This document shows, in pieces, positions 10,911-30,419 of a stretch of DNA of 39,453 nucleotides. Every line of letters begins with the position of its first letter. The stretch's first letter is position 1. The stretch comes from Desulfuromonadales bacterium (GTDB lineage: Bacteria > Desulfobacterota > Desulfuromonadia > Desulfuromonadales > BM103). The DNA lies in NCBI GenBank assembly GCA_014860225.1, contig JACZKE010000026.1, forward strand, positions 1-39,453, given 5' to 3'. The notes beneath the pieces were generated by a model that ran no database searches, had not been told where the DNA came from, and saw only the letters and a list, made by a program, of their open reading frames with translations. A program made the translations under genes and the position numbers.

Positions 10911-11891
10911 ATGGATAAACCAGAAATTTTCCTGCGCGATGTCTTTCTAGCCAGACAACGATGCAGCGGCTTTGCCCAAAAAACTCCACTGCTCCACTCC
11001 AGCGCTTTGAGCGCTTCTACGGGGTATGAAGTCTTTCTCAAGCTGGAGAATCTTCAACAAACCGGTTCATTCAAAATCCGCGGTGCGGCAAACAAGTTGC
11101 TATCTCTCTCTTCGGAAGAACGCCAACGGGGCGTGCTCGCCTTTTCTACCGGCAACCATGGTCGTGCTGTCGCCTATGTCGCAGCACAACTGGGCATTCG
11201 TTCCGTGATCTGCATGTCCCACCGGGTCCCTCGGTACCGGGTGGAAGCGATGGAGGCTCTGGGAGGAGAAGTGGTCCTCTCTGGTCAGAGTCAGGACGAG
11301 GCTTACCTCAAGGCCCTGGAACTGGAGCGAAAAGAAGGTTTGATCATGGTTAAACCCTTTGATGATCCACATGTCATTGCGGGACAGGGAACAATCGGCA
11401 TTGAGATTCTGGAAGACCTCCCCGAGGTGGACAGCCTTCTCATTCCGCTTTCAGGGGGGGGACTGCTTGCCGGAATCGCTCTGGCGATGAAGGCGACCTC
11501 ACCCGCGATCAAAATCGTCGGGGTAGGACTCGAGGTCTCATGCCCCATGCAGGCCAGCCTGCAGGCTGGCCTGCCGGTGGAGATCGAGGAAAAGGACAGT
11601 CTTGGCGATGCTCTCCTGGGAGGGATAGGACTCGATAACTGTTATACTTTCCCTATGGTCAGGGACTTGGTTGACGAGGTCATTCTTGTCTCCGAAAAGG
11701 AAATCGCCGCAGGAATGTTCTACGCATTCGATACTCACCGACAGGTCATTGAAGGCGCTGGCGCAGTCGGTATCGCCGCCCTGCTGGTCGACAAGACTTC
11801 ACACCTGGGTAAGAATCTGGCAGTCGTCGTCAGTGGCGGGAATGTCGATCCAAGACTTTTAGCCGAAATTGCATGGAGAGAGTATGCCTGA
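10911..11891 (+). CDS. eutB: Threonine-dehydratase-like PLP enzyme (EutB-like candidate)
   Basis: A 326-residue fold-type II PLP enzyme. The Schiff-base lysine lies in 'GSFKIRGAANK' (Lys55) and the phosphate loop is 'LSGGGLLAGIALA'. The C-terminal regulatory ACT domain of biosynthetic threonine deaminase is absent, as in catabolic dehydratases and EutB. An upstream ATG at 10875 exists, but ATG 10911 gives the usual short N-terminus ('FLRDVFLARQR') with GGAG upstream. EutB acts on the hydroxylated branch of hydroxyectoine catabolism by removing water. Serine/threonine or hydroxyaspartate dehydratase is the alternative. It overlaps the second doeA by 8 bp, and a RidA gene follows, which fits an enamine-producing enzyme. 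Confidence 0.8.
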   Translation: MDKPEIFLRDVFLARQRCSGFAQKTPLLHSSALSASTGYEVFLKLENLQQTGSFKIRGAANKLLSLSSEERQRGVLAFSTGNHGRAVAYVAAQLGIRSVICMSHRVPRYRVEAMEALGGEVVLSGQSQDEAYLKALELERKEGLIMVKPFDDPHVIAGQGTIGIEILEDLPEVDSLLIPLSGGGLLAGIALAMKATSPAIKIVGVGLEVSCPMQASLQAGLPVEIEEKDSLGDALLGGIGLDNCYTFPMVRDLVDEVILVSEKEIAAGMFYAFDTHRQVIEGAGAVGIAALLVDKTSHLGKNLAVVVSGGNVDPRLLAEIAWREYA

Positions 11892-13077
11892 TTTCAGACC
11901 ACCCCAGCATCTCCCATTCGAACTTGCAGAATATCAGCAACGGCTCAAAAACACCAAAGAGGCTATGGGACGCTCCGGAGTGGAAGCCCTGCTGATCACC
12001 GATCCGGGCAACATGAACTACCTGACCGGCTATGACGGCTGGTCTTTCTATGTCCACCAGGGAGTCCTGATCCTGATCGACCAGGAAGAACCGATTTGGT
12101 TCGGTAGGGCACAGGACAGCAATGGCGCGGTTCTGACCACCTGGCTGGATAAGGAAAACATCTACGGTTACCGCGACAATTATGTGCAATCGAAGCTTTC
12201 CCATCCCATGGAGTTTGCTGCTGACATCCTCAATGAGCGGGGATACGCAAAACGACGTCTTGCCGTGGAGATGGACAGCTACTACTTCACCGGCCGCTGC
12301 CTCGATATGCTGCGCCGTTCGTTGCCTCATGCGACCATCATTGATGGCGACGACATCGTCCGCTGGGTGCGTTGCATAAAATCGGCAAAAGAACTCGATT
12401 ACCTGCGCATGGCCGCCCGCATCACCGAGCAGGTCATGCAGAAAGCGATTGATGGCATCGGGATTGGCGTGCGCGAAGGTGATGTAGCCGGGGAGGTTTA
12501 TAAAGCACAGATCTGCGGAACCGCCGACTTTACCGGCGATTACCCTGCGATCGCACCGATCATGCCCTCAGGCATACGCACATCGACCGCTCATCTGAGC
12601 TGGACTGACAGACGGTATGAACATGGTGATATCGTTCTACTCGAACTGGGTGGAGCCAAACATCATTACAACATGCCCTTGGCCCGCACAGTTATGATCG
12701 GCGAACCACCCAAAGAACTGCAGGACGTCGCCGAGGTCGCCATTGACGGCTTGAACCGGGTTCTGGAGTTTATCCGCCCTGGGGTGACGGCAGAAGAAGT
12801 GGAAGCAAAATGGCGCGAGTCGATCTCAGGAAGCCGTGTGGTCAAGGAATCAAGGGTCGGCTATGCCTTCGGGCTGAATTACCCACCGGACTGGGGCGAA
12901 CACACCATCAGCCTGAGACCCGGCGACAAGACCGTTTTAAAGCCGAACATGACAATCCATTTCATGCCGGGGATCTGGCTCGACACCTTCGGCTTCGAAT
13001 GCACCGAGCCGATCGTATTGACGGAACAGGGCTGCGAAACTTTTATTGATTTTCCACGCAAACTTTTCATCAAATAA
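11884..13077 (+). CDS. Ectoine hydrolase family protein (DoeA/EutD, M24 fold), divergent paralogue 2
   Basis: A 397-residue paralogue of the protein at 4153, sharing 'NMNYLTGYDGWSFY' (43-56) and 'GLNYPPDWGEHT' near the C-terminus. ATG 11884 is chosen because GGAGAG lies 4-5 bp upstream. A TTG at 11869 gives a longer form with no site. Active-site neighbourhood: Glu254 is kept in 'LLELGG', but the 'CCHRYHSPLART' segment of paralogue 1 reads 'AKHHYNMPLART', so the conserved histidine is Asn263. This suggests a changed substrate, for example hydroxyectoine or another cyclic amidine, or altered catalysis. It is translationally coupled to the eutB-like gene, which supports a hydroxylated substrate. 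Confidence 0.8.
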   Translation: MPDFRPPQHLPFELAEYQQRLKNTKEAMGRSGVEALLITDPGNMNYLTGYDGWSFYVHQGVLILIDQEEPIWFGRAQDSNGAVLTTWLDKENIYGYRDNYVQSKLSHPMEFAADILNERGYAKRRLAVEMDSYYFTGRCLDMLRRSLPHATIIDGDDIVRWVRCIKSAKELDYLRMAARITEQVMQKAIDGIGIGVREGDVAGEVYKAQICGTADFTGDYPAIAPIMPSGIRTSTAHLSWTDRRYEHGDIVLLELGGAKHHYNMPLARTVMIGEPPKELQDVAEVAIDGLNRVLEFIRPGVTAEEVEAKWRESISGSRVVKESRVGYAFGLNYPPDWGEHTISLRPGDKTVLKPNMTIHFMPGIWLDTFGFECTEPIVLTEQGCETFIDFPRKLFIK

Positions 13078-14676: not shown

Positions 14677-14901
14677 TCATCCGCCGCCAAGCAGAGGAAA
14701 GATGGAGAGAGTGTCCCCATCGTTCAAGGCCTGATCCAAAGACGCATGGCGTCCATTAACCAGGACCATACCGAGTTCGTCCTCACTGACACCGACATCG
14801 ACAACCACCTGCCGGCAGCTAACGCCATCAGGATAGTCCCTTTGGTCTTGTTTGAAACGACCGTTTCTGAACGTCGCAAAAAGCTTGACCGTAACCTTCA
14901 T
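14677..14901 (-). CDS. MoaD/ThiS-like small sulfur-carrier protein
   Basis: A 74-residue beta-grasp protein ending in 'FPLLGGG', the Gly-Gly tail that is adenylated and thiocarboxylated in MoaD/ThiS carriers. Start 14901 has GGAGGT 11 bp upstream. A longer reading (to 15048) lies inside the upstream gene and is not favoured. Such carriers are often encoded next to tungsten aldehyde oxidoreductases, where they supply the dithiolene sulfur of the pyranopterin cofactor. Here the gene lies 34 bp after the oxidoreductase domain of the preceding gene, so a dedicated cofactor role is the natural reading. Confidence 0.85.
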   Translation of the reverse strand: MKVTVKLFATFRNGRFKQDQRDYPDGVSCRQVVVDVGVSEDELGMVLVNGRHASLDQALNDGDTLSIFPLLGGG

Positions 14902-14935
14902 GATGCGTCGTGACCTCCGGTGAAACCCTGGTTTT

Positions 14936-17416
14936 TTACACAGGCTCGCCAAAATAAAGGGCCTTTGCCAGCTCTTCATCAGAGATATCGAAACTGGCAG
15001 CGACAGATTCCAGCGACTCTGTATACATGAAATCCGGCAACCGGTCATCCTTCGCGGAAAAACCGGCCCCCTGATTGAACTGCTTCTCCAGGATCAGTGT
15101 CTGCACGCCGAGGCCCATGAGTCGATCAACAGTCCACTCGCCGCCGAACTTGGCCGACATCATATCAACCAGGTGGCCGAGAGCTTCGGGATCCTCACAA
15201 CAGATCCCGGAGAAGATACACAAACCCAGGGAGTCAAAAACGGTCATGACGATCTGCAGATTTCTCGAAAGATCGACCTGACCATCTTTGCAGGTACCGT
15301 CAAGGGAATGGTCGCCGATGGAGTTGCCGGCGGTATGATCGGCGCCCATGGGGCTTGTCGCGTAGGTCACGCCGAGTCCCTTCAGACCTCGGGGATCATA
15401 GGCCGCCATTGCCTGCCCCTTGACCGTGGGAATCCGCTTAACCCCGAGATGGCGGCCGGTGGCTTCGGTTCCGTTGCCAAGAACGCGCCCCAATTCAGTG
15501 CCTGCAACCATTTCCTGAGCAAGACGCAAAGCGCCTTCTGCATCTCCGAATTCGATCAGACCGGCTTCCATACACATGCCGATAGCACAACCAGCATCCA
15601 TGGTATCGACGCCCAGATCGTCACAGAGCTTATCGAGCCTGGCAATCACATCGATGTCGCTGATACCGCAATTGGGTCCAAACAGCCCGATGGTTTCATA
15701 CTCAAACCCCGAGGTCAGGTAATTGCCGTCCTTGTCGTTATAAATTTGGGAACACCTGATCACGCAGCCGCGATGACAGATATGGGACATCTTGCCGCCC
15801 CGCTCGGCCTGCAGCTCGGCGATCCGTTCACCGCTGACTTGCTCGGCGTGCTCCCAGCGGCCCTTGCTGAAATTGTGAGTCGGCAGGATGCCCATCTCGT
15901 TGGTTACGTTGACCAGAAGAGCGGTTCCCAAAGCCGGCAGACCCTGTCCTGAAAAAGGGTGCGCCAGAATGGATTTGCTGAAAGCCTTGTTGGCAGAAAC
16001 GAATTTTGCCCTGTCCTCATACTGCCAATCGGTTTTTTTAACATCCTTGAACACGATAGCCTTCACTCCCTTGGAGCCCATCAGCGCACCAAGGCCACCA
16101 CGGGCGGCTGCCCGTGAAGGGTGGCCCTCAAGATCGGTAAACTGGATCGACGAGTTGAGATAACCCCGTTCGCCGGCCAAGCCGATAGAAGCGATGGAGA
16201 TATCGCTTCCCAACGCTTTCCTCAGTTCTTCGCCCAGCTGGTAGTTGTTCATCCCCAGATAGGGCTGAGCCGGCAAAAAACCGACCCCTGATGCGTCTAT
16301 CACCAGAACAAACCAGTCGTTTGGTTGCGGCTGGCCTTCCAGCACCAGGCCGTGCAGGTCGAGTGCGGCCATTCTTTTCGCCATGGTTCCGCCGGCATTG
16401 GCTTCTTTGATCGTCTTGGTCAGCGGGCTTTTGCCGCCCACGGAAATCCGTCCGGAGCATGGAGCCACCGTATCGGCGAGGAGCCCGGGGCAAACGATAA
16501 GCTTGTTCTCGGGACCCAGGGGATCGGATTTGGCATCCACCTCTTCATGAAGAATCCTGGCGATCAGGCTACGACCTCCGGAGAGCTGCAAACTCCCATC
16601 GACGACTTCACTGCAAGTTGTTTGGCTCGCCATATTAATACGCAACAGTTTTTTCATGTTTCTGCCTTTCATCGTTATTTCCAGGAGACTGTTTATGAGA
16701 TAGTCTCCTAAAAGTGATTTGGAAGGATTTGAACGCTGGAGTTCGAGGGACGGCTTCGCCGACAACCCAGCCCCCATTTCCAGGGCGAAGCCGAGAGTGA
16801 CCCGGGAGCAGGCGAAGGAATTCCCCCACAGGTTGGCCCCTGAAGGCAGCCCCTTCAGATCTCGCGGCCAACCTGAGGCTGCATGCGAATAGGGCTGTCC
16901 CGGATTGACAGTAACCTCTCCCGGCTTCAGGTGATCATCGGCCACGACTCCGGTTACTCCGGGCAATGAGGCCGGCAGCAAGCCCGGTCTTCCTGGATGA
17001 CCGGCCGCCACCAGGACGGATCCAGCCTTTTGAACCGCCTGACAGGCGGCCACGAGGACTTCGGCCCCTGGCCCGGGGGGCATCCCCAGGCTGAGGTTGA
17101 TAATCCTGCACCCCTCGGCGGCTGCTCTCAGCAACGCGCGAGCTACCAGCGAAGGGTAGGAATCCAGAGTCTCGTCAAAGACCCGTACGACGAAAAATTC
17201 CGCCTCGGGCAGACCCTGCCGCAAAATCCCCGCTACGGCCGTGCCATGACCGACGAGGTCGCGAAAATCCTCATCCTCGCGTATCTTGCCTGCATCGTCC
17301 AAGAAAATGCGCATCCCGCTGACGACACCCCTGACATGGGAATGCCATGGGTTCACCCCGGTGTCGATAATACCGATGCGAAAAGATCCGGATTCTGTAT
17401 GAAAAGCCGGCGTCAT
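14936..17416 (-). CDS. In-frame fusion: QhpE subtilisin-like protease plus tungsten aldehyde oxidoreductase
   Basis: One 826-codon frame with two recognisable parts. Residues 1-215 form an S8 protease with Asp18 ('GIIDTGVNP'), His57 ('GHGTAVAGI') and Ser200 ('WGNSFACS'). It has no signal peptide and matches QhpE, the cytoplasmic protease that trims the leader of the amine dehydrogenase gamma subunit. Residues about 250-826 form an aldehyde ferredoxin oxidoreductase. The Fe-S ligands are Cys547, Cys551, Cys555 and Cys733, and 'YDPRGLKGLGVTYATS' is the cofactor-binding signature. No stop lies between the parts. Internal ATGs at 16672 and 16657 could restart the oxidoreductase alone, though neither has a strong ribosome site. 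The start overlaps the ABC transporter stop by 4 bp. Whether a single fused protein is made, a separate oxidoreductase, or both, is open. Confidence 0.85.
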   Translation of the reverse strand: MTPAFHTESGSFRIGIIDTGVNPWHSHVRGVVSGMRIFLDDAGKIREDEDFRDLVGHGTAVAGILRQGLPEAEFFVVRVFDETLDSYPSLVARALLRAAAEGCRIINLSLGMPPGPGAEVLVAACQAVQKAGSVLVAAGHPGRPGLLPASLPGVTGVVADDHLKPGEVTVNPGQPYSHAASGWPRDLKGLPSGANLWGNSFACSRVTLGFALEMGAGLSAKPSLELQRSNPSKSLLGDYLINSLLEITMKGRNMKKLLRINMASQTTCSEVVDGSLQLSGGRSLIARILHEEVDAKSDPLGPENKLIVCPGLLADTVAPCSGRISVGGKSPLTKTIKEANAGGTMAKRMAALDLHGLVLEGQPQPNDWFVLVIDASGVGFLPAQPYLGMNNYQLGEELRKALGSDISIASIGLAGERGYLNSSIQFTDLEGHPSRAAARGGLGALMGSKGVKAIVFKDVKKTDWQYEDRAKFVSANKAFSKSILAHPFSGQGLPALGTALLVNVTNEMGILPTHNFSKGRWEHAEQVSGERIAELQAERGGKMSHICHRGCVIRCSQIYNDKDGNYLTSGFEYETIGLFGPNCGISDIDVIARLDKLCDDLGVDTMDAGCAIGMCMEAGLIEFGDAEGALRLAQEMVAGTELGRVLGNGTEATGRHLGVKRIPTVKGQAMAAYDPRGLKGLGVTYATSPMGADHTAGNSIGDHSLDGTCKDGQVDLSRNLQIVMTVFDSLGLCIFSGICCEDPEALGHLVDMMSAKFGGEWTVDRLMGLGVQTLILEKQFNQGAGFSAKDDRLPDFMYTESLESVAASFDISDEELAKALYFGEPV
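16683..16709. repeat. Inverted repeat at the QhpE/oxidoreductase junction
   Basis: AGGAGACT (16683-16690) and AGTCTCCT (16702-16709) form an 8-bp perfect stem, extendable inward by a few weak pairs. It lies in the linker coding region about 11-37 bp before the possible internal starts of the oxidoreductase. In the mRNA it could influence internal initiation. No T-run follows, so it is not a terminator. Confidence 0.6.
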
Positions 17417-19197
17417 GCCGAGTACCTTTCCGGCGGGTTGGCTGAAATTTTCGGCAATGTTTCGGAGGATGGTTGATTTTCTGCCCCAACGCCTCCGTTT
17501 ATTCCGCCATCCCTTCCCGTTCGCAGTGCGATATTAAGCTCTTTTGCCCCGACCTTCCGCAGCTGACCGTCACGCAAGAGATAAAGATGGTCATAGGAAT
17601 CCAGACCGCCAAGGCGATGCGTAATAGACAGAATGATCCGATCATTGAACGCTGCCCAGAGATTCCGCCTCACCAGAGCCTCTGTCTCTGGATCCAGGGC
17701 CGAGAAGGCTTCGTCCAGAACCAGGATGTCCGGATTCCTCAAGGCAAGGCGGGCCAGCCCGATTCGCTGTCTCTGCCCGTCGGAAAGTGACAACCCGCGG
17801 CCTCCGATGACGGTGTCGTAGCCATCAGGCAAGTCGAGAATGAACGTATGAGCCTCCGCCAGACAGGCCGCGTCGATCATTTCGCTGTGGGTGACCTCCG
17901 GATTGCCGTAGCGCAGGTTCTCCTCCACCGTTGCGTGCAGCAGAAATGGCTCGGCACCGGCATACCCCAGACGTCCGCCTGCCGAAGCGGCGACATTCGG
18001 GCCGAGTTCCTCGCCACCCAGAAGAATTCGGCCTTCCTGGGGAATACGCAAACCGAAGAGGACCTGCACCAGTGTGGATTTGCCGGCACCGGAGGTTCCG
18101 AATATACCCACATTCTCTCCCGGGGCAACTTTCAAATCGAGCTGCCGCAGTACCGGCGGGTTTCCGGGATAGGTAAAGCTGACCTTCTCGACGACCAGTT
18201 CTCCCCCGCCCCTGCTTGCCTCTTTGGTCGCAGCGTCGATAACGACTTCGCCGGCCAGCACCTCGGAGATTCTCGACAGACTCACCTGGGCTTCCTGAAA
18301 GCCACGCACCATCCCCAGCAGCCCCTGCGCCGGCCCGTAAAGCCGCCCCTGGTAAAGGATGAATGCGACGAAGGTTCCCAAGCCGATTTCACCTGATTCC
18401 AGGAACCGCCCGCCGAGCAGATAGATCCAGGCGAGGCTCGCGGTCAAGGCAAGTCCGGGTGTCCCCGAAGCGACCGAATCGAGAACCTGAAATCGCAACA
18501 TCTTGCGAATCATGCCGGCATTCAGCAGAGCGAAGCGTTTTTGTTCCTCTTTTTGTGAGGCGTGCAGACGGATGGCGCGCAAGGCGCTCATGCGTTCCGA
18601 AAGAAAGTGAGACAGATCAGCCATGATCTCACGGAGCCCCCTGGTGCCATTTTCGATTGGCTTGCGAAAGGCGGTGGTAATCACAAGGGCGACGCCGAGG
18701 CCCAGAAAGGACCACAGCGCCATTGGCGTCGAGAGGTTGAGCAAAATCACAGCCGCCACAATCAGGAAAAGAATATTCTGAAAGAAACCGAGGACACCGT
18801 CGACGAGAAGCGCCTGGATTTTCGGAACGTCGGCGCCGAAGCGGTGCAGGAGGTCACCATGGCGAAACCGTTCGAGTGACTCCAGGGGAGAATTCAGACA
18901 GTGAGCAAAGAGCCGCTCCCGGATAGAGACAAGAACATCAGCCGAAAGCCTGGAGTGGACCAGACGCGTCACCGCTCCGAGGATGAGATCGAGTACGGCA
19001 AGAGCAACCAATGCCGCTGCAATCTTTGGAACGATGGCATAGTCCCCTCTTTCAGCGACGGCATCAATAAAGGTTTTGCCGATCAAGGGCGGCGCCAGAG
19101 AGACTGCTCCTCCCGCCAGTCCGAGGAAGAACATGGCTGTGATGAGCCGACCCTTGCCTTTGAGATGCCTTGCGAACAGACCTACCGAAGTCAGCAT
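17413..19197 (-). CDS. qhpF: ABC transporter, fused permease-ATPase (QhpF-like peptide exporter)
   Basis: A 594-residue half-transporter. About six membrane helices fill residues 1-300, followed by an ATPase with Walker A 'GTSGAGKST', signature 'LSLSDGQRQR', Walker B 'ILVLDEAFSALD' and the switch histidine in 'SITHR'. ATG 19197 is chosen over 19263 because AAAGGAGG lies just upstream and the extra N-terminus would run deep into the preceding gene. In known amine dehydrogenase clusters QhpF exports the cross-linked gamma subunit to the periplasm. The gene overlaps the U32 gene by 7 bp and the next gene by 4 bp. Confidence 0.88.
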   Translation of the reverse strand: MLTSVGLFARHLKGKGRLITAMFFLGLAGGAVSLAPPLIGKTFIDAVAERGDYAIVPKIAAALVALAVLDLILGAVTRLVHSRLSADVLVSIRERLFAHCLNSPLESLERFRHGDLLHRFGADVPKIQALLVDGVLGFFQNILFLIVAAVILLNLSTPMALWSFLGLGVALVITTAFRKPIENGTRGLREIMADLSHFLSERMSALRAIRLHASQKEEQKRFALLNAGMIRKMLRFQVLDSVASGTPGLALTASLAWIYLLGGRFLESGEIGLGTFVAFILYQGRLYGPAQGLLGMVRGFQEAQVSLSRISEVLAGEVVIDAATKEASRGGGELVVEKVSFTYPGNPPVLRQLDLKVAPGENVGIFGTSGAGKSTLVQVLFGLRIPQEGRILLGGEELGPNVAASAGGRLGYAGAEPFLLHATVEENLRYGNPEVTHSEMIDAACLAEAHTFILDLPDGYDTVIGGRGLSLSDGQRQRIGLARLALRNPDILVLDEAFSALDPETEALVRRNLWAAFNDRIILSITHRLGGLDSYDHLYLLRDGQLRKVGAKELNIALRTGRDGGINGGVGAENQPSSETLPKISANPPERYSA

Positions 19198-20159
19198 GCC
19201 GCCTCCTTTTGCATCGGACGTTGCCAGACGTCCGGATAATAACAAAGATGCGCGCCCTCGCACATGGGGGCTGCCCCTCGCAGATCGATGACCGCCCGCC
19301 GAATTTCTTCCGGACCGCCTCCTTCATTGGCAACTCTCAAGGCCTGGGCCGCCAGTTCTACGGATTTCTGCTTCCGGGGCAGGGACGCCTCCCGCCCCAC
19401 GACCTTGAAACTGGCGATGCCGATGTGCAGCAAGTGCGGCAAGGCGCAAAGACCACATGGTCCGACGGGATAGCCCTGGCTCGTCTGGCATCCACAATGA
19501 TTCAAAGTCCATTTCCAGAAAGCGTAGCGCTCGAGAATCTCCGGATTCATCCCTTCAGTCCCTTCTCCGTCGCCCAGGCAAAAAGTTCCCACGGCATGTG
19601 TGGTGGCACAAAGGCCTTCCTCAAAAACGCAGCCATCGTTCAGTAAAAAAGCCTCAAACTCCAGACCTGGAACGGTAATCTCTTCGATCTCACCCAGAGT
19701 AAGATGCCTGGGAAGGATGATTCGGGAGACCCCGAGGTCCCGGAAAAAGGTAGCTGAGCCGGAGTTATTGCAGGTGGCAAGGCTGGAGACGTGAATCTTT
19801 GAAGCGGCGCCGTCCCCGGCCAGGGCCAGCATCAGGTCCAGATCGGCCACGATCAGTGCGGAGGCTCCTTTCTCTAATAACAGGGAGCCGAACTCGGCGA
19901 GCAGATCCACCCCTCCGGGCGGGTAATAGGGGGCGTTAAGGGCAACGTAGATCGGTCGACCGCAGGCCAATGCTACAGCCTTCTCAAAGTCGGCAACATC
20001 CGGAATGCCAGCCGACAGGGGCGCGCGGCGGTTCGCCCAGGCCTGGCCGTAAAGCTTCTCCCAATCGGGCGGTGTCAGGCCACAGAAGAATTCTTCGGCA
20101 CCAGCCCTCAGCAAAGGGGCCACCTCTGCTGAATTTTTCAGGGGCGCTAATATCTTCAC
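19191..20159 (-). CDS. U32 family protein, UbiU-like (candidate O2-independent hydroxylase subunit)
   Basis: A 322-residue U32 'peptidase' family protein. It opens with the family's beta-barrel start 'MKILAPLKNSAEVAPLLRAGAEE' region and carries 'GLCALPHLLHIGIASFKVVGR', the conserved C-terminal core. Cysteines at 177 and 184 are 7 apart, as recalled for the first two Fe-S ligands of UbiU. Further cysteines at 194, 222, 224, 235 and 238 can supply the rest. UbiU with UbiV hydroxylates ubiquinone precursors without O2, while other U32 members act on tRNA, rRNA or collagen. Here the gene sits inside the amine dehydrogenase maturation genes, overlapping its partner by 4 bp, so action on the QhpC tryptophan is proposed. 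Confidence 0.78.
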   Translation of the reverse strand: MKILAPLKNSAEVAPLLRAGAEEFFCGLTPPDWEKLYGQAWANRRAPLSAGIPDVADFEKAVALACGRPIYVALNAPYYPPGGVDLLAEFGSLLLEKGASALIVADLDLMLALAGDGAASKIHVSSLATCNNSGSATFFRDLGVSRIILPRHLTLGEIEEITVPGLEFEAFLLNDGCVFEEGLCATTHAVGTFCLGDGEGTEGMNPEILERYAFWKWTLNHCGCQTSQGYPVGPCGLCALPHLLHIGIASFKVVGREASLPRKQKSVELAAQALRVANEGGGPEEIRRAVIDLRGAAPMCEGAHLCYYPDVWQRPMQKEAAC

Positions 20160-21037
20160 GGCATTGGCCTTTCATGGAGAACTATTCTGTCGCAGCGGGA
20201 CAGATGGACAGCGGCCCAGTCTTCGGAGACCTCGTAAAAGAGGGTGTTGCCGGCCCTCCAGAGAGGCACCCTGGTGTCCGACCGTTTCACGGGGAGGCAA
20301 CGCTCCCGGCACAAGGCAGGGCAGCTTTTTCCCAACCCTTTGGAGAAACTGTCTTCAGCATCCATGCTTTCGGCCTTGATCAGGCAGTTTCGCCCTGTAG
20401 CCGCAAAGACATAGGGAAGATGGAGAACCCGCTGGAGAGTGGAGATCTCACTTTTCAGGTAGCTGCCCTCAAGGTCGGGATCGGTTTCGACGCCGGACAC
20501 CCCGAGACACAACAGCAATGAGCGCAGTCTGTCTCCCCGGTCTTGCGTCAGGGCACTTGGGGGCGGCGCCTCATGGGCCAGTCGGGGATCACGGTTGCTC
20601 CGATTGATCAATCGCCCGGCTTTTCGCTTGAGCCTGGGGTAGGATTTTCGAAGCAGACCGAGTATCCCCCAGTCATTGAAGCTCACCGTGGGTGCGTACC
20701 CTCGCCTCTGGAGCTCTGCCAGCAGGCGATCAACGCGTCTGAGGCCCCGGGGAGTTGCGATCGGGGTCATCAGCACAGCTTCGATTTTGGACTCCCGAGC
20801 TAGGCGACAGAAGGATTCGGCCTCAACCGTTGCGGGCAGAAGATCCTCACAGAATTCAGTGCCGAAATAAAGTGCCCGAAGAGTACCCGGAGGAAGATCC
20901 TCCCGCCACTGGAGCGGGCAGATGTCTCTGGGATCGGCAGGGAGCTTGCCGGCGCGCAAAAGACGCAACCCGTATTCCATAGGCAATTCTTTATAAAAGG
21001 CATGGGGCCCGTTCGGACTCAAGCGCAGGCCCCGCAA
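20156..21037 (-). CDS. U32 family protein, UbiV-like partner
   Basis: A 293-residue U32-type protein. Four cysteines match the recalled UbiV layout: Cys63 in 'LYFGTEFC', Cys218 in 'ATGRNC', then Cys239 and Cys243 four apart, with an additional Cys247. 'SFNDWGILGLL' corresponds to the usual 'ND-G' core motif. The start is TTG at 21037, 5 bp after the qhpB stop, and gives the expected short strand before 'LSPNGPHAFY'. ATG 20980 would remove that strand. It is translationally coupled to qhpB and to the UbiU-like gene. A UbiU/UbiV-style Fe-S heterodimer is inferred. Its normal target, ubiquinone, has no genes here. Confidence 0.75.
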   Translation of the reverse strand: MRGLRLSPNGPHAFYKELPMEYGLRLLRAGKLPADPRDICPLQWREDLPPGTLRALYFGTEFCEDLLPATVEAESFCRLARESKIEAVLMTPIATPRGLRRVDRLLAELQRRGYAPTVSFNDWGILGLLRKSYPRLKRKAGRLINRSNRDPRLAHEAPPPSALTQDRGDRLRSLLLCLGVSGVETDPDLEGSYLKSEISTLQRVLHLPYVFAATGRNCLIKAESMDAEDSFSKGLGKSCPALCRERCLPVKRSDTRVPLWRAGNTLFYEVSEDWAAVHLSRCDRIVLHERPMP

Positions 21038-21042
21038 TTTGC

Positions 21043-22062
21043 TCAGATTGTCAACCTGACCATGGACATGCCGTCTGTCTCCATCTGGATAACCTTAAGG
21101 AGCTTCAAGGTCTCGGCATCGAAGACGGAGATGGTCGAACCGCCCCCCCCCGTGTAGACCTTCTTGCCGTCGCTGCTGACCATGATGGAGAAGTTGGTCC
21201 CTTCGTTGATAACGGTTTGGTCGGTAATTGTTTTGCTCTCAGCGTCGAGCTTGTACAGCTCATCCATGCTGCCGTAGATCTTGGAACGGTCCGGAGAGTA
21301 AATGAAACTGTAGACCATAGGCACGCCTCCCTTGACCATACTTTCCTTTATCTCGCCGTTATGGGTGTTGATTTCCAACATGCCGCACCCTTCCATAGTG
21401 TAATAGGGAGAGTTGAAGTAACCGTCGTTTTCATAGGTGTAATGCCAGAGGGGGAAGATGTTCATCCCTCTGTCGTACATGGAATGGATACCGGCAATCT
21501 TCATCTGCTGACCGGAGACGTCGATCTTGTAGAGGTCCTGGCCGATGGCATAAACTTCTTTGCCGCCATTGATCAGCAAGAGCTGGTAGATACCTCTGGG
21601 AACCTCGATGCTGCGTAGGATCTTCCCGCTGTCAAGATCGATCTGGGCGAGCATGGGCGCAGCAATTTCCACCTCCCCATCCACTGTGCGGCGACCCACC
21701 AGATTGGCAAAGATGGTTTTACCGTCGCCTGCCGATGTTATGCCGAACTCGAGCCGCTCCCAGCCGTCCTTTCCTTTACTGATATCGAGCGTTTTCAGCA
21801 GTTTCAGCTTTTCCGTATCTACGACATGCAGGTAACGGCGGCTTGCCGTGACCACCATCCGCTTATCGCCCGGCAAGACGGTATAGCCGCGGGTCCATCC
21901 CTTGAGCGGGACATTGCCTGTAACCGCGTCGGTCTCCCCATCGATTACTTCAAGGACGTCGTAACCCAGGACAAAAATCTGATCTTTGGCCTGGGCCACC
22001 CCCGCTGGCACCAGAAGACACAACATTAAAGCTGTCAAAGGAAAGTATTTTAAGTATTTCAT
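21043..22062 (-). CDS. qhpB: Quinohemoprotein amine dehydrogenase beta subunit (seven-bladed propeller)
   Basis: A 339-residue periplasmic protein with a Sec signal peptide ('LMLCLLVPAGVAQAKD' end). It has repeated WD/YVTN-like beta-propeller units such as 'IFVLGYDVLEVIDGETDAV' and 'KVYTGGGGSTISVFDAE'. QhpB forms the platform that encloses the gamma subunit and the CTQ site in the heterotrimer. Its place right after qhpC and the length near the family's usual size support the call. A generic propeller protein would be the alternative if the neighbours were different. Confidence 0.87.
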   Translation of the reverse strand: MKYLKYFPLTALMLCLLVPAGVAQAKDQIFVLGYDVLEVIDGETDAVTGNVPLKGWTRGYTVLPGDKRMVVTASRRYLHVVDTEKLKLLKTLDISKGKDGWERLEFGITSAGDGKTIFANLVGRRTVDGEVEIAAPMLAQIDLDSGKILRSIEVPRGIYQLLLINGGKEVYAIGQDLYKIDVSGQQMKIAGIHSMYDRGMNIFPLWHYTYENDGYFNSPYYTMEGCGMLEINTHNGEIKESMVKGGVPMVYSFIYSPDRSKIYGSMDELYKLDAESKTITDQTVINEGTNFSIMVSSDGKKVYTGGGGSTISVFDAETLKLLKVIQMETDGMSMVRLTI

Positions 22063-22109: not shown

Positions 22110-22448
22110 TCAGTCGTATTTGATCGTACGCCAGTCCCGGGCCATATTCGTACACACTTCGTGGTAGTCAGGGTTATTGGTGAGACCGTCAGGGGTCTGG
22201 GCCGGCCACCAGCAGTCACCCGAACAACCCATGAAATCACGCACGGATGCCTGGCAGTTGCCGATCGGATGGGTGCCACGGGGGTTGGTTTCCCAGCCGG
22301 TATCGAAAATCGTCGTACAACCAACCGGCATCTGTAATTCGGTACCACTTTCCAGAAGGGCTGCGACCGCTTTATTTTCCCCTTCGGCCAGCGCCTCGAT
22401 AGCCTCGGCTTTCTTATTCAAGGCCTTTATCATCAGTTTTTTTTCCAT
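22110..22448 (-). CDS. qhpC: Quinohemoprotein amine dehydrogenase gamma subunit precursor (CTQ peptide)
   Basis: A 112-residue peptide without a signal sequence. The leader (about residues 1-40) is helical and charged. The core holds every cross-link partner with the family spacing: Cys44-Glu53, Cys65-Asp71 and Cys79-Asp87 for thioethers, and Cys75 with Trp81 for the cysteine tryptophylquinone. 'GCSGDCWWPAQ' is diagnostic. Cys99 is an extra cysteine that I do not recall from the Paracoccus subunit. ATG 22448 is used because AAGGGA precedes it, and a longer reading to 22571 would overlap qhpD. QhpD installs the thioethers, the S8 protease removes the leader, and the ABC protein exports the product. 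Confidence 0.95.
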   Translation of the reverse strand: MEKKLMIKALNKKAEAIEALAEGENKAVAALLESGTELQMPVGCTTIFDTGWETNPRGTHPIGNCQASVRDFMGCSGDCWWPAQTPDGLTNNPDYHEVCTNMARDWRTIKYD

Positions 22449-22503
22449 CCTCGTTCCCTTTCGCTTATGAATTAGCGTCAACAAGATAAATACAGTCGTC
22501 GAA

Positions 22504-23895
22504 TCAGCAACCTGTTCTTTTCTCAAACTGTGCGAGCAGTTTGTCGGCCCCGGCATGACGCAGATCGGCATAGAGTTCTATGCCCATCTGAAGCCAGCGC
22601 AGGATGAAGTTACAGCTGCTCCCCGGAGGTATCCCCAGGGTGTTCTCCCTGAGATGGTTTTCATAATGACAGCCGCCGGAGCAGAGAGTTCTGGCCCAGC
22701 ACCTTTCGCACATTTTGTCCTTTCCTGCTGTCACATGGTCCAAACAGGAGCGGATTTTTTCCGGATCGGGTCCGGTCTCCAGATTGCCCACCTCGAAGCC
22801 TTTCTCACCCGCCAGTCGATGGCAGAGGTAGAATTCTCCCCCGGCATCGACGGCCAGGTAGCCAAATCCCGCCCCGCAGGCGACAGCCTTGGTCTGCCCC
22901 ATATGCAGACGTCCGAGAAGCTCAATGAGATTGGCAAAAGGAAGGATCCTGCCTTCCCGGGCCACTCTGGAGAAGCGGCGGGCCATGGCGGCGAAACTTT
23001 GCAGCAACACCTCCTCCTGATCCTGGTCGGGGAGCAGGGCTTTACTGATGGGACTCGCTGGGGCAATACCTACTTCATGAAAGCCGAGCGCCATCAGGTG
23101 ATCGAAGACTTCTTCACATCGTGACCATTGATCAGGGGTCAAAGTGACCCGGGCCGCAACCGCAGCAGTGTGGTTGTCGAGGAGCCCCCTAACCTGGGAC
23201 AGGACCTTCGAGTAGCTTCCCTTTCCCGAGGCATAGGGCCGATTGGCATCATGCAGGTCGGGAGGACCGTCAAGACTGACAGAAACGACGACCCTGTGAT
23301 CCCGGAAAAAACTTACGATTTCAGCATTGAGCAGGGTGCCGTTGGTAGTCAACGACACCAGAAGCCTTTTGCCTGCAGCCGAGGCTAATGTCTCCGCCTC
23401 CTCCACGGCTGCTTTTATTGCCGGCATATTGAGCAGCGGCTCGCCACCGAAGAGGACCAGGGTCAGGTCCTTGAGATCTCCCGATTCTCTGACCAGGTAG
23501 CGGGCGGCTTCGCGTGCTGTCTCCGAGTCCAGAAGGCGTGCCTGCCCTCCGTAGGCGCCGCCCTCTGCGTAACAGTAGGTGCAACGTAGATTGCAGTCCT
23601 GAGCCACTTCCAGCACCATGGTACTCATGGGAAATTCCTCCGGGTCGAACCGGACGGGAGGCCACTTTTTTGCGGAGCCCGCGGGTTTCAGCAGGAGGAT
23701 ATCCCGCAACCCTTCCAGTACGTCACGGTCGGATTCGGAGGCTTTACTCAAATCTACCGTGGGCTCTGAAACCCAGCGGCTGATCACCTCCTGCACAGAC
23801 GAGTCGACAAGAAACAGACTCGCCTGATCGACCCCGTAGAGAATCGCCCCATCTTTCGCTTGAAAGATGCTATGGTCGGCCCACTCGTGTTTCAT
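22504..23895 (-). CDS. qhpD: Radical SAM/SPASM thioether-forming maturase for the gamma subunit
   Basis: A 463-residue radical SAM enzyme. The SAM cluster is bound by Cys101, Cys105 and Cys108 ('CNLRCTYC'), with 'LFGGEPLLN' as the SAM-contact strand. A C-terminal SPASM domain contains 'CERCWARTLCSGGC' and further cysteines for auxiliary clusters. QhpD makes Cys-to-Asp/Glu thioether bonds in QhpC. An N-terminal segment of about 90 residues probably acts as the peptide-recognition part. It starts 2 bp after the qhpA stop and precedes qhpC by 55 bp, the order known from other qhp loci. Confidence 0.93.
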   Translation of the reverse strand: MKHEWADHSIFQAKDGAILYGVDQASLFLVDSSVQEVISRWVSEPTVDLSKASESDRDVLEGLRDILLLKPAGSAKKWPPVRFDPEEFPMSTMVLEVAQDCNLRCTYCYAEGGAYGGQARLLDSETAREAARYLVRESGDLKDLTLVLFGGEPLLNMPAIKAAVEEAETLASAAGKRLLVSLTTNGTLLNAEIVSFFRDHRVVVSVSLDGPPDLHDANRPYASGKGSYSKVLSQVRGLLDNHTAAVAARVTLTPDQWSRCEEVFDHLMALGFHEVGIAPASPISKALLPDQDQEEVLLQSFAAMARRFSRVAREGRILPFANLIELLGRLHMGQTKAVACGAGFGYLAVDAGGEFYLCHRLAGEKGFEVGNLETGPDPEKIRSCLDHVTAGKDKMCERCWARTLCSGGCHYENHLRENTLGIPPGSSCNFILRWLQMGIELYADLRHAGADKLLAQFEKRTGC

Positions 23896-23897
23896 GA

Positions 23898-25430
23898 TTA
23901 TTTGACCCTCGGAACGTAATCAGGCGGAACGACTGCCAACATGGCCTCCGCAGTGTACTGATGACCTGCTCTTTCGTATTCCGCTGAGACGTTTACCAGG
24001 CCGGTCCCTTCCGTTTTGTACTCCCTGGTCATGATCTGCCCATAGTCGCTGGTGGGAATGTAGGTTCCGTTCTTGGCGATAGCCCCGAGCCAGGCCAGAT
24101 CGTCGTCATTTTCCCGCGTGACAAATTCGCTCAGCTTGAAGCTGGCGGGAACCGCTCCGAGAATCAGGTCGTCGGCAGCATAGGCGACAGCCTCGAACTG
24201 AACCCCTTCGGCCGGAAAGTGAATTCCGCCGTATACCCGGGCGCGCCCCAGCTCCGGAGTGATCTTGATGTGATCAATCCGGTCGGCCAGTGTCACGGGT
24301 AGCGTATTGAGGTTTTTCACCGTGAGGCTTGCCTGAACAGCGCCTTTACCCTGATAAGCAACCTTTGCGACAATGGTTTCTCCGTCGCGCCTGGCTTCCA
24401 GGACTTTGACGTTGCCGCCGGTGAAATCAAGGTCTCCGGCCTTGATTTCCGGAAGCTTTACCCCTTCCAGGGTCAGAGTCGTGGTCTCTCCGGCCAGAAG
24501 ATAGGATGGGGTCACCTTGAGGATCCTGGCCGGGCCGTCCGCGGGGTACCAGGTGCTCGTTGAGGTGCGGAAATCGGGGGCCGGGAAATGATGCTGCCCC
24601 TTAATGATCCCATCCGCGAATGAGTAGGCGCCCAGGGTCACGAAGTTGTTGTGGCGGGTTTCGGTGCGCAGGGCGTGTCCGCCGTACAAGACAGCTTCAC
24701 CCTGGAAGTGCTCGCTGGTGCCGTCATCGTAGCTCAATGCCCCCGCAACGGTATAGGAACCACTCTGGCCAGCCTTGATCGAAGCGTGACCGCGGTAGTT
24801 GCCCTTGCCGGGCTCATTGCCCAGAACAATCCAGGAGCCGGCAGGGTTAGCCTGGGGCGTCACCCACGGCTTGTCGTAGGGAAGACTTTTGGCCAGGCTT
24901 GCCAGAATCGCAGCAGATTCCTCATACCACTTCATTTCACGCATCTGGCCGTCAATCGCCGGATCCATGTAGTAGTGAAAATCGCGGACCTTCGCCCAGG
25001 CCGACTCGGTCATGCGGTAGGATTTGATTTTTCCGGCGCTGTGGCATCTGACGCAGGTGGCAAAGAATTGTCCCTCCTGTTCGCCCTGAGGTATCTCCAC
25101 CGTCTGCGGGTTGTTGTACAGGTTGAGGTAAGAGACCTTGTCCAATTCCTCGGGCGAGAGGATCTGCGTCTCACAGATCTCTTTCAGGAGAACGTCCCTC
25201 TCGCTTGCATTCAGATCCATATCGTATAGTCGAGCCATGCGATCGATGATGACCCCCCATTCATCGGGAGTGGCACGGATCTCCTCAACCCGGGAGATCT
25301 TTCCATCTTTAGGCTCGTGACATCCGGTACATTTTCCCCAGGTCAATGAATCCTTGCTGAAAGCCATCGCCCCATCGGCCAGCACCCCCATCGACAGTAA
25401 CAACGTCATCAGCGTAATCAACTTTTTCAT
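23898..25430 (-). CDS. qhpA: Quinohemoprotein amine dehydrogenase alpha subunit (diheme cytochrome c)
   Basis: A 510-residue periplasmic protein with a signal peptide ('LLLSMGVLADGAMAF'). It has two heme-c motifs, CTGCH at 34-38 and CVRCH at 126-130, followed by beta-rich domains of the amine dehydrogenase alpha subunit. It carries electrons from the CTQ cofactor of QhpC to periplasmic cytochromes. The enzyme oxidises primary amines to aldehydes plus ammonia. It is the first qhp gene, with AAAGGAGG 9 bp upstream and a 94-bp gap from the RND gene that shows no convincing terminator, so read-through from upstream is possible. Confidence 0.93.
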   Translation of the reverse strand: MKKLITLMTLLLSMGVLADGAMAFSKDSLTWGKCTGCHEPKDGKISRVEEIRATPDEWGVIIDRMARLYDMDLNASERDVLLKEICETQILSPEELDKVSYLNLYNNPQTVEIPQGEQEGQFFATCVRCHSAGKIKSYRMTESAWAKVRDFHYYMDPAIDGQMREMKWYEESAAILASLAKSLPYDKPWVTPQANPAGSWIVLGNEPGKGNYRGHASIKAGQSGSYTVAGALSYDDGTSEHFQGEAVLYGGHALRTETRHNNFVTLGAYSFADGIIKGQHHFPAPDFRTSTSTWYPADGPARILKVTPSYLLAGETTTLTLEGVKLPEIKAGDLDFTGGNVKVLEARRDGETIVAKVAYQGKGAVQASLTVKNLNTLPVTLADRIDHIKITPELGRARVYGGIHFPAEGVQFEAVAYAADDLILGAVPASFKLSEFVTRENDDDLAWLGAIAKNGTYIPTSDYGQIMTREYKTEGTGLVNVSAEYERAGHQYTAEAMLAVVPPDYVPRVK

Positions 25431-25524: not shown

Positions 25525-27852
25525 TTATTTACTCCCAACTCTCAAAACGTTGGCCAGTGCAGGCAAAAGCAAAAGTGCGCCCAGCATGTTCCAGAGGAAC
25601 ATGAAGGTGAGCAGTATCCCCATATCTGCCTGGAACTTGATTGGCGAGAAGTACCAGGTGGCAACCCCCACCGCCAAGGTGATTCCTGTGAAAAAAACGG
25701 CCTTTCCGGTGGTCTTCAGCGTCTCAACGTAGGCGAGCTCCAGCGAGTGCCCTTCGGCAATAAAAGAGGACAAGCGGCTGTATATATAGATGCCGTAGTC
25801 AACCCCGACCCCGACACCAAGGGCAATTACGGGAAGTGTTGCCACCTTCACACCGATACCAAGCATCGCCATCAGACCGTTCGCCAGAACCGAGGTGAGC
25901 GCCAGTGGCAGGATTATGCAGAGTACGGCCTTTAGCGATCTGAAGGTAATGAACACCATGAGTACCACTACGCCGTAGATGTAGAGCAGGATCTTGAACT
26001 GCGCAGCAGTTATGACTTCGTTGGTTGCCGCTTCAAAAGCTGCGTTACCGCTACCTAAACGAAACCAAATGTCTGCGTCATCATTGTCGACAGCAAACGC
26101 GCGCACCTCTGTGGTAACTCTCTGCAAGGTGGCCTGTTTGTGGTCGGCCAATTGCAGATCAATCTGTTGCATATTACATTCGAGACTATTCGTGTTCATT
26201 GCGTACCCGGTCATGGCAATAGCTCGGGCCAGAACCCTCTCATCGCGTGGCAACGCCCAAAATTTTGGATTCCCTTCGTTGCCGAAGAAGCGACTATCCT
26301 TGGCGACCGAGACAGGCGAGGCAACTGACTGCACCCCTTCGGTGTTTTGCAGACTCCAACCGAGGCGGTCGATCAGATCCATCACCTTGAAGCTCTCGCA
26401 ACCACCCTTAGGGGTTCCGACAAAGATGCTCATCAGATCAGTAGAGGTGGAAAAAGTGCTGGTGATAAAGGTATTGTCAATATTGTAGGCCGAATCGGCA
26501 CGCAGCTCGGGAGCCCCTTTATCGAGGTCACCGATCTTCAGATCCTTGCCGCCGATTAAACCGATGACCAACAAACCGACCGCCGCCACGAGCGCCAGTC
26601 GTGCCATTTTGGCCTGTGCGAAGCAGGCGATGCCATCCCATAGCGCCGATTTATCGGTAAGTTTGCTCTGTGCATGCTCGACGCTACTTTGCGAGATGCC
26701 CACATAGCTCATGATGATCGGCAGCAGCACCAGATTGGTAAAGATGATAACTGCGACGCCGACAGAGGCGACCATCGCCAGATCTTTAATCGCGCCAATA
26801 TCGATGATAAAGAGCATGGCAAAGCCGATACCATCGCTCAAAAGCGCCACCAGGCCAGGTTTGTGCAGATGGTGGAAGGCTCGTTTTGCGGCCACAAGTC
26901 GGGTTTCACCATTACCGACTTCGTGGGCGATCACATTAATAACCTGAACAGCGTGGCTTACCGCGATGGCGAAAATCAAAAACGGCACCAGCACGGAAAA
27001 AATCCCAAGCCCATTGCCCATCAGGTTGAGCACGCCTAATTGCCACACCACGGCAATGATCGAGCAGGCGAGGGGAACAACAGTCGCCTTGTATCCTCGT
27101 GAATATTGATAGAGCAGCAGCGTCGTAATAAGAATTGCGGCAAGGAAGAAAAGACCGATTTTGCCAAAACCACTTACCAGGTCAGCAACCTTTTTGACGT
27201 CACCGATAATATGCAGAGTAACACCTTGATCGCTGTATCTGGCCCGAACCTCCTCCAACTTTGCAGCAAACGCATCCAACTCAAGTGGCTGGCGCGTCTT
27301 GGGACTTATCGGCAGGACTGAGAAGTCGATCATCGAGGCTTTGAAGTCCTCTGAGACGTAGCTGCCCACGATTCCGGCGCGAAAAGCGTTAACCTTGATC
27401 TCTGCCATCGATTCAGGAGTGTCGGTAAACTTATTGTTTTCGATCACCCGTCCGCTGCTAAAACCTTCAGGGGTTATTGCAAACCAGAGCATCCCCGGAG
27501 CCCAAAGAGAATTGAGGCTGCCCGTGTCGACCCCCTCCAGGAGAGATAGCTCATCGCTTATCTTCTGCAGGGTCAGCAGATATTTGTAGTCAAAGATCGT
27601 GTCGCCATCGGTGCGCTCCACCGCCACGCGCACGACGCTTGATCCGCCAACTTGTTCGGAGCCGAGAAACTCACGCGCATTTTGTACGAACTCGTGGCTT
27701 CCCGGAATCAGCCTTTCAAGCCGCGTGTCAGGACGCACCAGAAAAGCTTGATATGCGAAAAAAAGGGTCACAATAACACTCAGGCCGAGTATCAAACCCC
27801 TGTTTTTAAAGATGGCATTTTCATACCATTTGAACTTTATTAGACTATTCAT
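25525..27852 (-). CDS. RND superfamily (MMPL-type) transporter
   Basis: A 775-residue transporter with twelve predicted membrane helices in two halves: a first helix near residue 20, a cluster at about 225-395, one near 415, and a second cluster at about 625-770. Two large periplasmic loops lie between. The 'GVGVDYGIYIYSRL' motif in the second half is the usual RND/MMPL signature. Proteins of this kind move lipids or hydrophobic compounds. The gene belongs with the YCF48, DUF1329 and DUF1302 genes that precede it, a combination found in many Proteobacteria. Export or envelope lipid transport is likely, but the cargo is unknown. Confidence 0.87.
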   Translation of the reverse strand: MNSLIKFKWYENAIFKNRGLILGLSVIVTLFFAYQAFLVRPDTRLERLIPGSHEFVQNAREFLGSEQVGGSSVVRVAVERTDGDTIFDYKYLLTLQKISDELSLLEGVDTGSLNSLWAPGMLWFAITPEGFSSGRVIENNKFTDTPESMAEIKVNAFRAGIVGSYVSEDFKASMIDFSVLPISPKTRQPLELDAFAAKLEEVRARYSDQGVTLHIIGDVKKVADLVSGFGKIGLFFLAAILITTLLLYQYSRGYKATVVPLACSIIAVVWQLGVLNLMGNGLGIFSVLVPFLIFAIAVSHAVQVINVIAHEVGNGETRLVAAKRAFHHLHKPGLVALLSDGIGFAMLFIIDIGAIKDLAMVASVGVAVIIFTNLVLLPIIMSYVGISQSSVEHAQSKLTDKSALWDGIACFAQAKMARLALVAAVGLLVIGLIGGKDLKIGDLDKGAPELRADSAYNIDNTFITSTFSTSTDLMSIFVGTPKGGCESFKVMDLIDRLGWSLQNTEGVQSVASPVSVAKDSRFFGNEGNPKFWALPRDERVLARAIAMTGYAMNTNSLECNMQQIDLQLADHKQATLQRVTTEVRAFAVDNDDADIWFRLGSGNAAFEAATNEVITAAQFKILLYIYGVVVLMVFITFRSLKAVLCIILPLALTSVLANGLMAMLGIGVKVATLPVIALGVGVGVDYGIYIYSRLSSFIAEGHSLELAYVETLKTTGKAVFFTGITLAVGVATWYFSPIKFQADMGILLTFMFLWNMLGALLLLPALANVLRVGSK

Positions 27853-27877
27853 TATCTAAACCTTTTCGCTCCTCAGA

Positions 27878-28888: not shown

Positions 28889-28951
28889 CTGATTTCCTTT
28901 AACTTCATCAACCATATGTCGCACCCAAATTTTACTGTCCATCAGCCCTGA

Positions 28952-28995: not shown

Positions 28996-29014
28996 AATTA
29001 TGGCTTTTTATCTG

Positions 29015-30373: not shown

Positions 30374-30419
30374 TCTTCGAACTCCTTATATCTAAAGGTC
30401 ATAACAGCTCTGATTCGAT

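Follow-up and report, generated by a model that had tools for sequence, protein, structure and literature searches.

A U32 protein pair as a candidate oxygen-independent replacement for the tryptophan hydroxylase QhpG in quinohemoprotein amine dehydrogenase clusters

The known route to cysteine tryptophylquinone (CTQ) uses two O2-derived oxygen atoms, yet quinohemoprotein amine dehydrogenase (QHNDH), which carries this cofactor, reportedly acts in anaerobic amine degradation, and this raises the question of how CTQ could be made without O2. A concrete candidate answer is offered by a locus in a Desulfuromonadales bacterium (GCA_014860225.1, contig JACZKE010000026.1), in a stretch of 39,453 nucleotides that is here referred to as the window and in whose numbering the cluster coordinates are given. 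The presence of two U32 genes, here named U32A and U32B, within a QHNDH cluster on the minus strand of this window is real and confirmed. From genomic distribution, sequence relationships and analogy to characterized U32 enzymes, we consider it probable (roughly 0.78) that U32A and U32B form a two-subunit iron-sulfur hydroxylase which replaces QhpG in CTQ formation and acts, independently of O2, on Trp81 of QhpC. If this is correct, it could explain how the cofactor arises in bacteria related to known anaerobes.

The gene order on the minus strand is mmpL, qhpA, qhpD, qhpC, qhpB, U32A, U32B, qhpF, a frame encoding qhpE together with an aldehyde ferredoxin oxidoreductase, and a MoaD-like gene. 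The two genes of interest are as follows.

20156..20980, minus strand: U32A, UbiV-like subunit, 274 amino acids (hhalign, AlphaFold2 model and four cysteines; no Pfam or NCBIfam match)
19191..20159, minus strand: U32B, UbiU-like subunit, 322 amino acids (Pfam Peptidase_U32, hhalign and conserved cysteines)

A preliminary description of this DNA had placed two adjacent, overlapping U32 genes between qhpB and qhpF, and both are found there, with U32B overlapping the 3' end of U32A by 4 bases. The span that it gave for them, 19191 to 21037, has the frames right but probably not the start of U32A, whose open frame (20156-21037) more likely begins with the ATG at 20980, as in relatives, than with the TTG at 21037.

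The step that requires O2 is the one catalyzed by QhpG, which is reported to add 32 Da to Trp43 of its substrate with both oxygen atoms coming from O2 (PMC7876137); clusters without QhpG therefore need another oxygen source. The other genes of a QHNDH system are present in the window.

23898..25430, minus strand: qhpA, diheme alpha subunit of QHNDH (NCBIfam QH_alpha 5.5e-75, 252.8 bits against a cut-off of 274.35)
22504..23895, minus strand: qhpD, radical S-adenosylmethionine (SAM) maturase for thioether cross-links in QhpC (NCBIfam TIGR03906 3.7e-103, below cut-off)
22110..22571, minus strand: qhpC, gamma subunit precursor (NCBIfam QH_gamma 116 bits, above the cut-off of 50; probable start at frame codon 42)
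21043..22062, minus strand: qhpB, QHNDH beta subunit (NCBIfam QH_beta 2e-27, below cut-off)
17413..19263, minus strand: qhpF, ATP-binding cassette (ABC) transporter, presumed QhpC exporter (Pfam ABC_membrane and ABC_tran; relatives occupy the same place in other qhp clusters)
14936..17416, minus strand: qhpE, subtilisin-like protease (residues 13-215), followed in one open frame by an aldehyde ferredoxin oxidoreductase (residues 256-804) (NCBIfam QH_SP 1e-36, below cut-off; Pfam AFOR_N and AFOR_C)

The cluster was taken as a QHNDH cluster on the basis of a QhpC with the CTQ-forming Cys and Trp residues together with a radical SAM QhpD, for which TIGR03906 is the best named family. For QhpA, QhpB, QhpD and QhpE the best match is in each case their own NCBIfam model, although each falls below its cut-off; QhpA also matches Pfam Dehyd-heme_bind and Qn_am_d_aII/III/IV, and QhpF is recognized in family libraries only as a generic ABC exporter. 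Since qhpD, qhpE and qhpF are kept in complete U32 clusters, the step that is missing is that of QhpG. The presumed target is kept as well: Cys75, Cys79 and Trp81 of QhpC (numbered from the likely start) are present in 67/67 sequences and Trp80 in 66/67, three of these sequences being from QhpG-type plasmid clusters, and the CTQ-forming Trp and Cys are thus conserved in U32-type and QhpG-type clusters alike. By their spacing, Cys75, Cys79, Trp80 and Trp81 match Cys37, Cys41, Trp42 and Trp43 of the Pseudomonas putida subunit as given in PMC7876137. In one genome (G077), the block qhpD-U32A-U32B-qhpF-qhpE lies on contig C131, and qhpA, qhpC and qhpB lie on C123 and, incomplete, on C49, from which it follows that the pair goes with the maturation genes and not with the dehydrogenase.

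The genomic distribution supports a replacement of the O2-dependent Trp hydroxylase QhpG by the U32 pair. Searches for QhpC (NF037958) covered 297 genomes from the same phylum as the window, with 8 positive, 398 from the phylum to which the Aromatoleum G298 belongs, with 7 positive, and 349 from the order of G298, with 4 over the cut-off (two of them already counted). The resulting 17 genomes were searched for QhpG (eight-sequence profile, E 1e-20) and for U32B. QhpG was counted from 131 bits, the lowest two matches being pieces on two contigs of one genome and the next match having at most 94 bits; G308 (94 bits) and G310 (84 bits), under E 1e-20, were scored as lacking QhpG. U32B was counted from 381 bits, and all other matches had at most 185 bits. 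Nine of the 17 genomes were without QhpG, and all nine had U32B (G000, G021, G077, G176, G200, G223, G244, G296 and G1009). The remaining eight had QhpG (G298, G381, G385, G469, G498, G627, G647 and G992), seven of them without U32B, while G298 had both. G298 was the centre of the search, and with G000 and G298 left out, 15 unselected QhpC-positive genomes comprised 8 with U32B only, 7 with QhpG only, none with both and none with neither (Fisher p 1.6e-4, uncorrected for kinship). G1038, with a QhpC match below the cut-off that contains a stop and a best U32B match of 95 bits, was left out. In the reverse direction, a strong U32B match (at least 381 bits) was found in 9 of the 297 same-phylum genomes, namely in all 8 QhpC-positive genomes and in 1 of the 289 others (G001), whose assembly is fragmented and has the pair on a contig of 3.1 kb. 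A second tier of matches in these 297 genomes (140-261 bits, E 1e-30) represents another U32B branch; the second-tier loci examined were mostly without U32A, and none lay beside a qhp cluster. Nine loci (L223-L231) have single U32B-like genes with no U32A in the fetched stretch and fall outside the qhp-linked tree groups.

Clusters of the QhpG type served as a control. Among ten plasmid qhp clusters hand-picked from 566 records with a QhpD match, nine encode a protein that exceeds the QhpG cut-off of NCBIfam (Paracoccus, Leisingera, Cupriavidus and Pseudomonas), and in none of the ten was a U32 pair present in the fetched stretch. Two of the QhpG genes examined (L251 4918-6171 and L254 6066-7424) are named pilus assembly protein CpaD and tryptophan 7-halogenase in public records. 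The tenth cluster, from Novosphingobium (L114), encodes a divergent QhpG-like flavoprotein (11619-12908, plus strand; 60 bits against a cut-off of 240, no Pfam match), and its gene lies between qhpB and qhpF, the slot that the U32 pair occupies in the window. No L114-like flavoprotein was found in 80 U32 loci or in the window, whole genomes not having been searched for it. In the window's genome, no QhpG was found with one QhpG query (E 1e-3) or with the eight-sequence profile (E 1e-20), divergent L114-like forms not having been sought genome-wide. A second qhpG of known type in this genome was considered and rejected, as the best FAD_binding_3 match is a FixC-like protein with 40.8 bits against the NF049967 cut-off of 240.

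To follow the pair more widely, GTDB genomes were scanned by means of two peptide patterns and an alignment of five U32B sequences, and the best 80 of 94 relatives were kept. These come from Geobacter, Desulfuromonadales, Aromatoleum, Azoarcus, Thauera, Motiliproteus, Terasakiella, Herminiimonas, Glaciimonas, Desulfosporosinus and others, and 16/17 genomes of the genus Aromatoleum have U32B over 440 bits. U32A lies upstream of U32B on the same strand in 79/80 relatives, the 80th (L046) starting at a contig edge, and the two genes are within 60 bases of each other in 76/79; a chance pairing was rejected on this ground. At least one qhp gene is present in the fetched stretch of 63/80 loci and at least four in 53/80, the commonest gene orders being A-D-C-B-F-E-U32A-U32B (22 loci) and A-D-C-B-U32A-U32B-F-E (20 loci). 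Aldehyde ferredoxin oxidoreductases, which are usually O2 sensitive, are encoded at 10/80 loci, and their presence beside the pair fits anaerobic amine oxidation, as expected. In G176, the U32B gene (L026 6985-7758, minus strand) ends early at an in-frame stop (258 codons with the stop) and is either decayed or affected by an assembly error.

What kind of proteins are U32A and U32B? U32B matches Pfam Peptidase_U32 (PF01136) above the cut-off (5.2e-26) but reaches only 50.3 bits with NCBIfam UbiU (NF047963, cut-off 440), whereas U32A has no Pfam or NCBIfam match at E 0.01, including NCBIfam UbiV (NF047965, cut-off 275 bits), and five out of five U32A relatives are likewise without a Pfam match. 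With hhalign profiles of seven UbiU and seven UbiV sequences, U32B aligned with UbiU at E 2e-34 and with UbiV at 5e-7, and U32A aligned with UbiV at 5.6e-7 (probability 92%), with UbiU at 8e-4 and with U32B at 6.5e-7. By sequence comparison, U32B is therefore UbiU-like without doubt, and U32A stands equally close to U32B and to UbiV, with UbiU more distant. AlphaFold2 models built on 46-row alignments had predicted local distance difference test (pLDDT) values of 91.0 for U32A and 87.1 for U32B. For the U32A model, the U32 protein 5d88 was the only PDB match under 1e-3, and it is this match, together with the seven-UbiV profile, that justifies the U32 label for U32A. The U32B model gave 46 Foldseek matches under 1e-3, and the 50 matches listed were to other folds, mostly barrels, with 5d88 absent from those listed. 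Both proteins thus fall into the U32 superfamily, U32B through Pfam and U32A through its predicted fold. In a 73-row tree, drawn with a midpoint and with no root tested, U32A and UbiV share one side of a branch (92), and the U32B-like proteins all fall into a single group (100) that excludes UbiU as well as four further U32 proteins from Pseudomonadota genomes; a U32B tree rooted on UbiU gives a long-branch warning. The earlier wording, UbiU/UbiV-like, hence holds as a statement of likeness in profile and fold, but the cut-offs of the UbiU and UbiV families themselves are not reached.

The cysteines named in the preliminary description are correct and near invariant. They were counted in 85 U32A and 86 U32B rows, of which 80 were found through the two peptide patterns and in which two genomes are present twice (L025/L049 and L026/L055). 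In U32A, Cys44, Cys199, Cys220 and Cys224 (numbered from the ATG; Cys63, Cys218, Cys239 and Cys243 from the TTG) are kept in 83, 85, 85 and 85 of 85 rows. In U32B, Cys177, Cys184, Cys194, Cys235 and Cys238 are present in 86/86 rows, Cys26 in 85/86, and Cys300 and Cys306 in 84/86 each; the count for Cys177 is biased because this residue is part of one search pattern. Cys26, Cys194, Cys235, Cys238, Cys300 and Cys306 had not been named before. In Escherichia coli, C39/C180/C193/C197 of UbiV and C169/C176/C193/C232 of UbiU are described as holding [4Fe-4S] clusters (PMC6747719). U32A has the CXnC...CX3C layout of UbiV, with a spacing of 20 in the middle pair compared with 12 in E. coli. C177, C184 and C238 of U32B align with C169, C176 and C232 of UbiU, and C193 has no aligned partner, C194 and C222 being near. 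Judged by their number, the conserved cysteines of U32B would be enough for more than one iron-sulfur cluster.

While the genomic evidence that the pair takes the place of QhpG is strong, the hydroxylation chemistry itself is putative and modeled on related enzymes. We infer a heterodimer with iron-sulfur clusters, an organic oxygen donor, and a site and number of hydroxylations that together give the following scheme. QhpD would form the thioether cross-links in QhpC, and the U32A-U32B heterodimer would then bind QhpC in this cross-linked form, perhaps on QhpD in the manner of QhpG. Without using O2, it would add two oxygen atoms to the Trp81 indole ring, and these would be supplied by an organic compound such as prephenate, in line with what has been proposed for UbiUV and for U32 enzymes that modify RNA. 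Subsequently, QhpE would remove the leader and QhpF would export the chain; formation of the quinone and of the bond between Cys75 and Trp81 would proceed as in aerobes.

Several observations weigh against this scheme or narrow it. Among the unselected genomes, the window's phylum accounts for 7 of the 8 with U32B only and the phylum of G298 for all 7 with QhpG only, and kinship therefore explains part of the exclusion pattern; G1009, which has U32B only though it is from the order of G298, is an exception favoring replacement. The wider co-occurrence set consisted of 80 QhpC-positive genomes, 73 of them with U32B (seven Firmicutes, G304, G318, G319 and L052 were left out). QhpG is also present in 17/73 genomes that have both U32B and QhpC, and the exclusion is consequently not strict; genomes of this kind resemble bacteria that keep both UbiIHF and UbiUV. 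QhpG occurs in 0/32 genomes in which the pair lies directly upstream of qhpF, the order in the window, compared with 17/41 with other arrangements, and within the locus itself at 7/80 U32 loci. For 49 of the 63 genomes picked via U32B the record title indicates a metagenome-assembled genome (MAG), and an absence of QhpG there is weak evidence, but QhpG is also lacking in non-MAG records, including Geobacter argillaceus, Aromatoleum toluvorans, A. evansii, A. anaerobium and A. toluclasticum, Azoarcus Aa7, Herminiimonas CN and Motiliproteus SC1-56. The pair is also present in genera which we take not to be known strict anaerobes (Herminiimonas and Glaciimonas). The mutual exclusion anticipated earlier holds for the 15 unselected genomes and for the 32 with the window's gene order, and not for the wider set. 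The earlier account would have been overturned by a qhpG homologue elsewhere in the window's genome that is needed for CTQ, and none of known type was found, though a divergent flavoprotein like that of L114 may be encoded there. In addition, the likeness of U32A to UbiV is moderate and only equal to its likeness to U32B, U32A compared by hhalign with E. coli UbiV alone gave a nonsignificant 3%, and G077, the genome with the separated maturation block, has an estimated contamination of 8%.

These points leave room for other explanations, of which one accepts that the pair serves QHNDH maturation but assigns it to another step, such as handling of the QhpC leader, assistance to QhpD or formation of the Cys-Trp bond, with hydroxylation left to an unrecognized enzyme encoded elsewhere. 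Gene linkage indeed points to maturation and not to a particular step, and the divergent L114 flavoprotein illustrates that enzymes of the hydroxylation step can escape a search. Moreover, QhpG itself is reported to have a second role in promoting cross-linking by QhpD (PMC7876137). However, it is the QhpG step that is vacant in complete U32 clusters, no QhpG-like or L114-like flavoprotein is encoded in the window, and the characterized U32 relatives described in PMC6747719 and PMC11574389 are hydroxylases; we regard this explanation as unlikely. It is also conceivable, but in our view improbable, that the pair acts on some general substrate, be it a lipid quinone, an RNA or another peptide, and that its presence in qhp clusters only reflects a shared use in anaerobic growth. 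In favor of this, 17/80 loci have no qhp neighbors in the fetched stretch, 7 of these 17 being from Firmicutes (L079, L083, L088, L093, L094, L098 and L105). These seven Firmicutes genomes have no QhpC and no QH_alpha match over the cut-off, ten genomes searched for QH_alpha with E values of up to 10 gave only background among the Firmicutes, and an inspection of their loci by eye revealed nothing in common except the pair. Similarly, G133 and G034, f38 family genomes from the window's phylum, have a pair (L222 12744-14571 and L232 12526-14507) without qhp neighbors and without QhpC, and it follows that relatives of the pair can have another substrate. On the other hand, in the window's phylum strong U32B matches are nearly confined to QhpC-positive genomes, and 15 of 25 carriers without qhpC at the locus have QhpC elsewhere. 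The other ten are the 7 Firmicutes together with 3 MAGs of proteobacteria, and one of these MAGs matches QH_alpha with 259 bits, which, as with the window's own QhpA, falls short of the cut-off of 274. The Firmicutes pairs form their own clade, although whether this clade is nested within the qhp pairs is unsure (81% in the Shimodaira-Hasegawa-like approximate likelihood ratio test, no root tested). Lastly, the family name Peptidase_U32 might suggest that the proteins are true peptidases processing QhpC, but the subtilisin-like QhpE is also encoded in the cluster and the cysteine layout resembles that of the iron-sulfur members UbiU and UbiV (PMC6747719), making this very improbable. A replacement of QhpG by U32A-U32B thus remains the reading we prefer.

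If true, this would constitute an O2-free way to a protein-derived quinone, and QhpC would provide a soluble substrate for the poorly understood chemistry of U32 proteins. To our knowledge, and within the open literature searched, it would also be the first U32 hydroxylase acting on a protein. A search of the open PMC literature revealed no paper joining tryptophylquinone and U32. According to its title, a 2019 paper by Schmitt in J Bacteriol has QHNDHs starting anaerobic amine degradation in A. aromaticum EbN1, a denitrifier; the paper reportedly describes CTQ maturation with no need for O2, and the replaced step may already be discussed there. Tentatively, and with more doubt than conviction, the pair could be seen as a new, widespread U32 branch that hydroxylates protein residues without O2, with QhpC as its first recognizable target and the Firmicutes and f38 pairs building other protein-derived cofactors or modified peptides.

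Two further genes adjoin the cluster.

25525-27852, minus strand: mmpL, MMPL transporter
14677..15048, minus strand: MoaD/ThiS-like small protein (Pfam ThiS 5e-8)

The MoaD/ThiS-like protein perhaps serves the cofactor of the aldehyde oxidoreductase. The frame shared by qhpE and this oxidoreductase is uninterrupted over 826 codons, and in the relatives examined the two are separate frames in either order. Upstream of qhpA (25525-32057, minus strand) lie genes for the MMPL transporter and for Ycf48-like, DUF1329 and DUF1302 proteins, relatives of which are seen again close to the U32 pair at a number of loci (e.g., L034, L056, L057, L090 and L099). A sigma-54 response regulator and a sensor kinase are encoded at 32704-36227 (minus strand); close relatives of these flank the qhp cluster in L023, L025, L027, L032, L037 and L039, and they perhaps regulate it.

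Compared with the known qhpABCDEFG(R) cluster, the window has qhpA, D, C, B, F and E, with qhpG replaced by the U32 pair and with the aldehyde ferredoxin oxidoreductase in one frame with qhpE. QhpG, a flavin-dependent peptidyl-tryptophan dihydroxylase (PDB 7ctq), belongs to the same kind of cluster and shares with the pair the proposed step and target residue, but it is an unrelated flavoprotein that, according to PMC7876137, needs O2, and it was not found in the window's genome by the searches described above. TrhP and RlhA resemble the pair as U32 proteins with a prephenate-dependent hydroxylation (as described in PMC11574389, PMC10470549 and PMC6599085) and differ in having RNA substrates. 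The closest parallel is UbiU-UbiV, which is reported to hydroxylate aromatic rings of ubiquinone precursors without O2, even in air (PMC10470549), with prephenate as the proposed oxygen donor (PMC11574389). The window's genes are likewise an adjacent pair of U32 relationship, and the four-Cys layout of UbiV is kept in U32A. They differ from UbiU-UbiV in their separate tree clades, in the reversed order with the UbiV-like gene first, in the larger number of conserved Cys residues in U32B and in the proposed substrate, a protein; an SCP2 partner (UbiT) was not seen in the ten scanned proteins of the cluster, to which the search was confined. Both UbiUV and, as proposed here, the U32 pair stand in for O2-dependent flavin monooxygenases, and U32A-U32B and QhpG would accordingly be, for a protein cofactor, the counterpart of what UbiUV and UbiIHF are for ubiquinone.

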